DNA of 64,000 nucleotides from an uncultured Pedosphaera sp. (lineage in GTDB: Bacteria; Verrucomicrobiota; Verrucomicrobiia; Limisphaerales; Pedosphaeraceae). Every line of letters begins with the position of its first letter. Positions within the stretch are counted from its first letter, which is position 1. Below the pieces are notes generated by a model. The model worked only from the letters and a program-made list of their open reading frames with translations, ran no database searches and was not told the DNA's origin. Positions 14,638 to 16,156 of the stretch are shown piece after piece. Made by a program: the position numbers and the translations under genes. The stretch is taken from contig CAIXFN010000034.1 of the NCBI GenBank assembly GCA_903918755.1, forward strand, positions 62,001 through 126,000, read 5' to 3'.

Positions 14638-14661
14638 TCAGCCGCCCCCCCATCCAATAAC

Positions 14662-15246
14662 TTGTAGGAGTCGACGTGAGGAGACTCTGACTTCTTCTTT
14701 ATCCCCCTCCCGCCCGGAATGCTTGAGCCTCACGTCGGCTGCGACAAATTATCCTGAATCCCAGACGCCGCCACCCCCAACAAATTGTAGGAGTCGACGT
14801 CAGGAGACTCTGACTTCTTCTTTATCCCCCGCCCGCCCGGAATGCTCGATCCCCCTCACTTCGGCTGCGACAAATTATCCTGAATCCCAAACGCCGCCAC
14901 CCCCAACAAATTGTAGGAGTCAACGTCAGGAGACTCTGACTTCTTCTTTATCCCCCGCCCGCCCGGAATGCTCGATCCCCCTCGCGTCGGCTGCTGCAAA
15001 TTATCCTGAATCCCACACGCCGCCACCCCAACAACCATGAAATCATCCCACAAATTTACGCCCCCCATCCAACAAATTGTAGGAGTCGACGTCAGGAGAC
15101 TCTGACTCCATGCGGCACCCGCCCACCCCACCAAAGCGCTTGAGCCTCCTGACGTCGGCTCCTACAATCAATCCACAATCCCACACGCCGCCACCCCAAT
15201 AACCGCCAATCCGCCTCCAACAACTTGTAGGAGTCGACGTCAGGAG
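14662..15246. repeat. REP-like palindrome array, four and a half units
   Basis: An A-type arm, TTGTAGGAGTCGACGTCAGG, is repeated at 14662, 14785, 14911, 15077 and 15225. The first four are each followed by an inverted B-type arm (reverse complement of TTGTAGCAGCCGACGTGAGG) at 14727-14747, 14854-14873, 14980-14999 and 15144-15167. Between the arms, most units carry the same spacer beginning GACTCTGACTTCTTCTTTAT and then a C-rich run; the fourth keeps only GACTCTGACT. Each unit of about 90 bases could fold into a long hairpin. The fifth unit keeps only its A arm and runs into the 3' end of the transposase gene. Copies differ by a few substitutions. The array lies directly downstream of both flanking genes. 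Confidence 0.88.
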
Positions 15247-15294
15247 ACTCTGACTTCTTCTTTATCCCCCGCCCGCCCAGAATGCTTCAATCCT

Positions 15295-15909
15295 TTACCA
15301 CGAGGGGCGCTTGAGGTTTCCCGCGTCCGGCTGTCTCATTTTTTGGTAAATTTTCCAAAACTTCGGCCAGAAATCTTCCGCCAGCGGATTCAATGTCGGA
15401 TAACCAGGCACGATGCAACCGTTGCCAGGCCAGACCTCATTTTCTTTGACCAATTCCGCCCGAATCGGGTTGGCGGCGATGTAAGCGCACATCCGTGCGA
15501 AAGCGTCGTGGGTGCGTTCCTGCTCCCGCAGCACATTGTCTTGTGCCTGGTTTTGAAATCTTGCGGGCCGTAACCCGGGTTCAAGATGGGTCCTTAAGAA
15601 GGCCATGGCATTGATTTGGTCAGTTTCCTGGCGCAAGCCCATCCAGACCAGATGCAGATGGTCCGGCATCAGACAATAAATGGGGCAGACCAAGCTCTCA
15701 CGGGCTGCCGTGTGGAGCATCAGTTCCCGAAATTGTTGATGGAAGTCAGGTGTGAACCAACCTTGCTGGCGGTCGAAGATGGTCAGCGTCCAGTGAACCA
15801 CTGCGTCGGCTTGATAGTATTCGCGCGGTAGTCGCGGCAGGTAGAATGTCCGATCCTTGGGGCTAGTCCGCGGGCTTGGGCATGGGTTTGGGCCGGAGGC
15901 GGTATCCAT
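15295..15909 (-). CDS. REP-associated tyrosine (Y1, HUH) transposase, RAYT
   Basis: This 204-residue member of the Y1/HUH transposase superfamily is expected to nick and rejoin single-stranded DNA at REP hairpins. The HUH motif appears as MPDHLHLVW (H84, H86). The catalytic tyrosine is probably Y143 in CAYIAANPIRAELV, the Y-I-x-x-N-P-[IV] signature of RAYTs. The start is ATG 15909; upstream codons in the open frame run through REP sequence and are not believable. There is no Shine-Dalgarno, and a REP arm begins 8 bases before the ATG. REP-like palindromes flank the gene on both sides in mirrored orientation. Such genes are usually single-copy and domesticated. Confidence 0.9.
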   Translation of the reverse strand: MDTASGPNPCPSPRTSPKDRTFYLPRLPREYYQADAVVHWTLTIFDRQQGWFTPDFHQQFRELMLHTAARESLVCPIYCLMPDHLHLVWMGLRQETDQINAMAFLRTHLEPGLRPARFQNQAQDNVLREQERTHDAFARMCAYIAANPIRAELVKENEVWPGNGCIVPGYPTLNPLAEDFWPKFWKIYQKMRQPDAGNLKRPSW

Positions 15910-15916
15910 AAATATT

Positions 15917-16109
15917 TTGTAGCAGCCGACGTGAGGCTCAAGCATTTCGGGCGGGCGGGCAGGGAATACAGACGTAATCAGAGTCTCCTTACGTCGACTC
16001 CTACAAATGGTTGGGGAGGAGCGTTGTAAACTTCGAGGTTGATTTGACGGTAGTTGGGTTGACGACGCGTGGGATTCTCCACTTTTTGTAGCAGCCGACG
16101 TGAGGAGGC
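15917..16109. repeat. REP-like palindromes upstream of the RAYT gene
   Basis: A B-type arm (TTGTAGCAGCCGACGTGAGG) begins at 15917 and an inverted A-type arm ends at 16006. Together they are the reverse complement of the units on the other side of the transposase. Another solitary B-type arm lies at 16086-16109, about 50 bases before the end of the next gene. The region 16007-16085 shows nothing else recognisable. Confidence 0.85.
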
Positions 16110-16156
16110 CCTTCCAGCCCCTGGGAGGGCCCCCAGCATCCCCCCCGCCTCCCTCA

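Follow-up and report, generated by a model that had tools for sequence, protein, structure and literature searches.

A locus in the window (the whole stretch of 64,000 nucleotides analysed here), in which a RAYT gene lies among palindromes, bears on how a RAYT tells its own REP from other hairpins. The initial annotation had placed this gene inside its own REP-like palindrome cluster at 14662–16109, and the repeats were found exactly there. Twelve GTAG-tagged REP units make up the locus, arranged as tandem BIMEs 3′ of the RAYT gene and as mirrored units 5′ of it (Table 1). The A arms lie at 14662, 14785, 14911, 15077 and 15225 on the forward strand, with an inverted second arm after units 1–4; on the 5′ side there is a B arm at 15917 (+), an inverted A arm at 15981–16008 (−) and a lone extra B-type arm at 16086. 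A covariance model run over the 64-kb window returned 12 matches, all inside 14660–16123 (E 3e-10 to 2e-6), these 12 REPs being part of the model's own training set.

Several details of the array refine its first description. The two sides, thought to be exact mirror images, are reverse complements of one another but not exact ones (83–92% identity over 37–65 nt), and in the arms of about 20 bases the functional unit is the 24-nt GTAG hairpin rather than the 20-nt arm itself. The fifth unit does lack its B arm: its spacer ends at about 15287 (...AATGCTT), and the RAYT stop codon occupies 15295–15297. Unlike the other units, unit 4 has an almost perfect inverted A arm (15142–15168) in place of the B arm and forms a long hairpin in which 15079–15102 pairs with that inverted arm (−25.9 kcal/mol, z −6.65); the segment 15079–15168 thus holds two A arms as a near-perfect 22-bp inverted pair. 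Units 2 and 3 repeat with a 126-nt period and are 98% identical, linker included, which shows that the array grew via tandem duplication. The neighbouring genes encode PVC-type domains (TIGR02604 and TIGR02603), which makes a host from the Planctomycetes–Verrucomicrobia group probable.

Table 1. Features of the RAYT locus, in window coordinates.
Feature	Position	Strand	Evidence
RAYT / TnpAREP-like HUH-Y1 transposase	15295..15909	-	translation, NF047646, orthologue profile vs 4er8
REP, A arm of unit 1, GTAG hairpin	14664..14687	+	repeat comparison, covariance model
REP, B arm of unit 1, degenerate tag GTCG, shortened 3′ part	14722..14745	-	repeat comparison, covariance model
REP, A arm of unit 2	14787..14810	+	repeat comparison, covariance model
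REP, B arm of unit 2, degenerate	14848..14871	-	repeat comparison, covariance model
REP, A arm of unit 3	14913..14936	+	repeat comparison, covariance model
REP, B arm of unit 3, degenerate tag GCAG	14974..14997	-	repeat comparison, covariance model
REP, A arm of unit 4	15079..15102	+	repeat comparison, covariance model
Inverted A-type REP of unit 4, stem GAGCC/GGCTC	15142..15165	-	repeats, folding, covariance model
REP, A arm of truncated unit 5, beside RAYT stop codon	15227..15250	+	repeats, covariance model
REP, B arm of mirrored unit, just upstream of RAYT start	15919..15942	+	repeats, covariance model
REP, A arm of mirrored unit	15981..16004	-	repeat comparison, covariance model
Lone further B-type REP	16088..16111	+	repeat comparison, covariance model
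Tandem BIME array (REP, C-rich spacer, inverted REP, linker), 123–126-nt period	14662..15063	+	repeat families

The RAYT protein (P0001, 204 aa, from an open reading frame) contains the HUH motif H84-L-H86 (DHLH) and the tyrosine motif YIAANP, in which Y143 is the probable catalytic residue. Its sole family match was to NCBIfam NF047646 (REP-associated tyrosine transposase; E 2.3e-12), at 47 bits against a curated cut-off of 80; Pfam and PHROGs searches gave nothing significant, Y1_Tnp included in the former. All 13 aligned orthologues (P0001 among them) match NF047646 and share H84, H86, Y143, N147 and P148 without exception, and a profile of P0001 with 12 orthologues matches the E. coli TnpAREP structure (PDB 4er8, E 4.2e-7). 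A single-sequence AlphaFold prediction was unusable (pLDDT 37). The gene is present once in its own 7.19 Mb, 118-contig assembly, where the next relative is 25% identical, and when contigs were scanned for relatives a single match of 24 residues, in Kiloniella, came up.

We then considered the hairpin that this enzyme would have to recognise. The GTAG tag is unpaired, conserved and placed beside the stem, and the 5-bp stem was paired in 86.4% of cells in a first alignment of 28 copies, against at most 46.9% in slid controls. Fold prediction shows this stem alone, topped by a 10-nt 'loop'. The loop variants are patterned (GACGTCAGGA, GAGGTGACGA and GAAGTGATGA) and their positions 3 and 8 covary, so that we read the tip as GA opposite GA, a Watson–Crick pair and a GTNA loop. 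The complete plan is therefore the GTAG tag and a 5-bp stem, above which come two G·A mismatches in tandem, a single base pair that covaries and the GTNA loop. Sheared G·A pairing is the form taken by tandem GA/GA in DNA and by GNNA loops. The 'long loop' of a REP can in this way conceal a conserved structured tip.

This tip was tested in 89 distinct REP copies from 46 loci, taken from the 500-nt flanks of RAYT genes and located only by GTAG plus the fixed letters of the core, with no pairing required. The inner pair was Watson–Crick in 83 of the 89, compared with a mean of 47.2 and a maximum of 62 in 2000 shuffles; outer pairs 1–4 exceeded every one of 500 shuffles, relatedness being left uncorrected in both comparisons, and outer pair 5 is an almost invariant C-G. 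When GA was not required, the search yielded 132 distinct hairpins that carry the tag and are paired in both the stem and the inner position, 73 with GA/GA and 46 with two Watson–Crick pairs instead. The two kinds can differ by as little as two letters (compare GTAGCAGCCGACGTGAGGAGGCT and GTAGCAGCCGACGTGAGTCGGCT) and are the same hairpin. At one locus (L196), the flanks hold tandem-G·A REPs with a three-base GTA loop instead of GTNA, beside a RAYT with Thr at residue 107.

Elsewhere in the genome, the covariance model (R2, built from 28 REP copies which match by construction) returned 55 REPs with E≤1 and, under the stricter E≤0.01, 45, the 12 at the locus among them. At least 43 REP-like matches (E≤1) are therefore scattered outside the RAYT locus, and all of these counts are lower bounds because 150 of 1509 first-look candidates were scored. 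A simple REP pattern matched 38 times genome-wide and 4 times when read backwards. The looser GTAG...GA pattern matched 24 times in the window against 7–18 in 20 Markov controls and is weak alone, so the counts given here were based on the covariance model or on tests of pairing. The expectation that the arms would recur in the genome, in intergenic positions and linked to a single RAYT, was borne out on each point. Besides the one RAYT copy, the assembly encodes five other Y1 transposases (PF01797), and neither the covariance model nor the core pattern found a REP in their 1.5-kb flanks. Forty-two of the 43 scattered copies lie outside called genes, against a coding background of 77% at the same loci further away (binomial 4e-26), a count in which several REP sites share one intergenic region and in which genes come from our own simple codon-usage caller, which misses some, the RAYT among them.

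Away from the locus, most copies stand alone or form same-strand doublets: in nine groups of neighbours, eight are same-strand and one (on contig C16) is mixed. Inverted pairs with the C-rich spacer, which is present in the array units as first described, consequently belong to the RAYT locus and are not a general feature, and inverted REP doublets in this genome are essentially confined to it. Most scattered copies also diverge from those in the array, and only one of the 43 (C90:79010) has an A arm identical to that of the array. The present RAYT may for these reasons not have made most of them, but its dispersal of some, such as C90:79010, is likely from their sequence.

Among relatives, a threshold of E≤1e-20 gave RAYT homologues in 73 of the 320 genomes from the order and in 22 of 387 sampled across the phylum, whereas a sample across the class, searched at E≤1e-25, had them in 41 of 384; the three sets overlap and each includes the genome studied here. 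Orthologous RAYTs across the order are 50–69% identical and are flanked by REPs of the tandem-G·A plan, while sister RAYTs have fully paired REPs. The 111 matches in loci gave 97 distinct proteins, of which the 96 of at least 150 aa (dropping L132, 105 aa) were placed in a tree. Automatic labels assigned tandem-G·A REPs to 44 of them, paired REPs with a GTNA-like loop to 24, paired REPs with another loop to 5 and none to 23. REP type clusters on this tree (18 changes compared with 44.7 when shuffled; 7 for tandem G·A alone). The tree is discordant with host families, and several genomes (e.g. G017, G031 and G222) hold both kinds. A RAYT from the same genus (L075, in G001) lies far from the window RAYT, whose nearest relatives are in other families, a placement that suggests either horizontal transfer or loss in some lineages.

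REPs and RAYTs also go together across genomes. In a sample of 37 relatives chosen out of 57 (leaving out G024, which has a RAYT fragment only), four or more REP matches at E≤0.01 were present in all nine genomes with a RAYT and in 7 of 28 without (Fisher 9e-5); the latter imply either that REP persistence needs no enzyme or that the assemblies miss the gene. RAYT-less relatives with 5–35 REP matches (G002, G004, G006, G009, G012, G015 and G054) would hold orphan REP populations or have assembly gaps.

Both sides of the RAYT gene carry GTAG REPs that recur elsewhere in the genome, as expected of a REPtron, and the locus is very probably one: a chromosomal, single-copy and probably domesticated RAYT with its own flanking REP/BIME array. 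A credible, if less favoured, alternative is a relic REPtron, whose RAYT formerly spread REPs and is now inactive, the array persisting and growing by recombination and the REPs being neutral or RNA- or terminator-like hairpins. The diverged scattered copies with their one exact A arm, the truncated unit 5, the degenerate GTCG and GCAG tags of the B arms, the duplication in place of units 2 and 3 and the persistence of REPs in genomes without a detected RAYT all agree with such decay, but it sits less easily with an open RAYT frame, intact invariant motifs and the retention in many species of orthologues with tidy REPs.

The intergenic position of the scattered repeats would also suit RNA hairpins or transcription terminators that have no connection with the RAYT, the cluster being a coincidence. 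We consider this very unlikely, given that the tag, core and covarying stem are common to orthologous RAYT flanks in many species, that REP type changes with RAYT lineage and that the conserved tag is unpaired. The slimmest chance belongs to an IS200/IS605-like insertion sequence with subterminal hairpins repeated by chance: despite its HUH-Y1 family and the palindromes on both sides, the gene is single-copy and far outnumbered by REPs, and its YIAANP motif departs from the Y---Q that Table 1 of PMC6006769 lists as the IS200 signature. For the preferred REPtron reading, analogy with E. coli TnpAREP as described in PMC8266576 suggests that the RAYT would bind GTAG and the hairpin strand when single-stranded, reading both tag and hairpin, and that the HUH motif and catalytic tyrosine would nick next to the hairpin and then join strands. 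REPs or REP pairs might occasionally be copied elsewhere as by-products, with the RAYT gene staying in its array, and the local array would enlarge by tandem duplication.

Which part of the enzyme might follow the REP type was sought in the alignment. Among 194 aligned positions, residue 107 is the best discriminator of REP type, followed by 110 and 103, and the spacing of the three fits one helix face. Thr occupies this position in 43 of the 44 tandem-G·A rows (Gln in the other), and the 24 paired rows have Glu, Ala, Arg or Lys at 107, never Thr; the five 'paired, other loop' rows (Lys in four, Arg in one) fall outside both sets. In a tree built without this helix, there are six independent pairs of rows with contrasting REP types, and residue 107 follows in 6/6, compared with 5.75 for residue 110, 5.0 for residue 103 and 0.99 for the median column, with Gln scored as tandem type on the basis of the same rows. 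Only three of the six pairs lie on well-supported branches, which puts statistical significance out of reach.

Six of the 23 unlabelled rows were read by hand: four fit the Thr107 rule (L093, L193, L196 and L205) and two break it, L192 having Ala with tandem G·A and L194 Thr with a paired stem. Nine held-out RAYTs had readable REPs (loci L247–L249 had none). The eight non-Thr rows have paired REPs as predicted, one of them (L246) with only a 6-bp paired REP, but the REPs of L234, the sole row with Thr, are also fully paired, contrary to prediction. The proposal that Thr107 decides REP type thus failed at the informative held-out case. With L144, L192, L194 and L234 as exceptions, Thr107 is present in 44 of 46 tandem rows and 2 of 37 paired rows overall; it appears from these alignments to be close to necessary for a tandem-G·A REP and not sufficient. 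Given its exceptions, two among the rows read by hand and one among those held out, we regard the rule as a correlate and not a code.

Residue 107 aligns with K82 of 4er8, which lies on helix α3 of E. coli TnpAREP and is reported to contact the mismatched C27 of the REP (PMC8266576). We infer that RAYTs of this clade recognise the tandem G·A via the helix that holds the equivalent of K82. More tentatively, and with the odds somewhat against it, the clade may switch its REP substrate between a paired and an obligatory tandem-G·A form (a two-base TC to GA change in the 3′ arm), the enzyme following via the 103/107/110 helix face, in about six independent enzyme–substrate switches. If true, this series could be read for the rule by which HUH transposases recognise mismatched single-stranded hairpins.

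The E. coli enzyme (group 2, subclass 2.2) also offers a parallel for an imperfect stem. Two consecutive stem mismatches in its REP are reported to be required for activity, and restoring the stem to be harmful (PMC8266576). The two systems share an HUH-Y1 enzyme, a GTAG tag and the two consecutive mismatches, but these are AA-GC in E. coli and GA-GA near a GTNA loop here, the tyrosine motif is YIHYNP rather than YIAANP, and the K82-aligned position is Thr in the window RAYT. The perfect short REPs described for group 3 / subclass 2.5 enzymes of Stenotrophomonas and Marinomonas (PMC8266576; PMC6006769, its Table 1) offer a second comparison. The DHLH and YIAANP motifs nearly fit that subclass (DH[LF]H, YI[VI]ANP), the REPs are likewise short and those of sister RAYTs fully paired, whereas the window RAYT, at 204 aa, exceeds the median of 151 aa and has an imperfect REP stem. 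In the 2021 study, the mismatch-type and paired-type models under comparison belonged to different RAYT groups (PMC8266576). In the present case both substrates occur within a single recognisable RAYT clade, which allows the difference to be traced to a small number of residues.

The REPtron concept had been brought to this locus as one from gammaproteobacteria. It fits, but is not gammaproteobacterial only: REPtrons and GTAG REPs are already known from Verrucomicrobia, having been reported in Opitutus terrae, whose families are GTAG-17, 19 and 20 (Di Nocera et al. 2013, PMC3733652). The families described there resemble ours in their GTAG tag, 5–13 bp stem, 2–20 nt loop, opposite-orientation dimers and REP-flanked RAYT, and include a REP-rich verrucomicrobium; the difference is that the 10-nt 'loop' here is structured, with tandem G·A, covarying pair and GTNA. 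The comparison with these 24 families is by description, not consensus sequence, and the window REP may equal one of them. Our literature search, whose scope left the figure consensus sequences of PMC3733652 outside, found no description of a tandem-G·A REP. What appears new in the literature searched is the tandem G·A and GTNA tip, its order-wide conservation and its link to RAYT lineages, and the unusual paired G·A mismatch shared by these hairpins may shed light on target recognition by enzymes of this kind. REPINs, inverted REP doublets presumed to be the mobile unit (Bertels and Rainey 2011, PMC3116915), have a likeness in the close opposite-strand REP matches of relatives such as G017 and G031, in contrast to the confinement of inverted doublets to the RAYT locus in the present genome.

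A second palindromic repeat of about 33 nt (CCTG plus CCCTGCGWAGCNNNNAGCGAAGCANGGG) is present in 23 copies in the same genome, against none for the reversed pattern (L207–L229, e.g. G000:C41:5042–5069, C110:490–517 and C118:92987–93014). By eye, 7 of the 23 lie within the tip of a REP of the family described here, always in the same orientation, and about eight more lie inside another palindrome (TTCGCGA...TCGCGAA). This repeat seems to be a hairpin that inserts into the tips of other hairpins.
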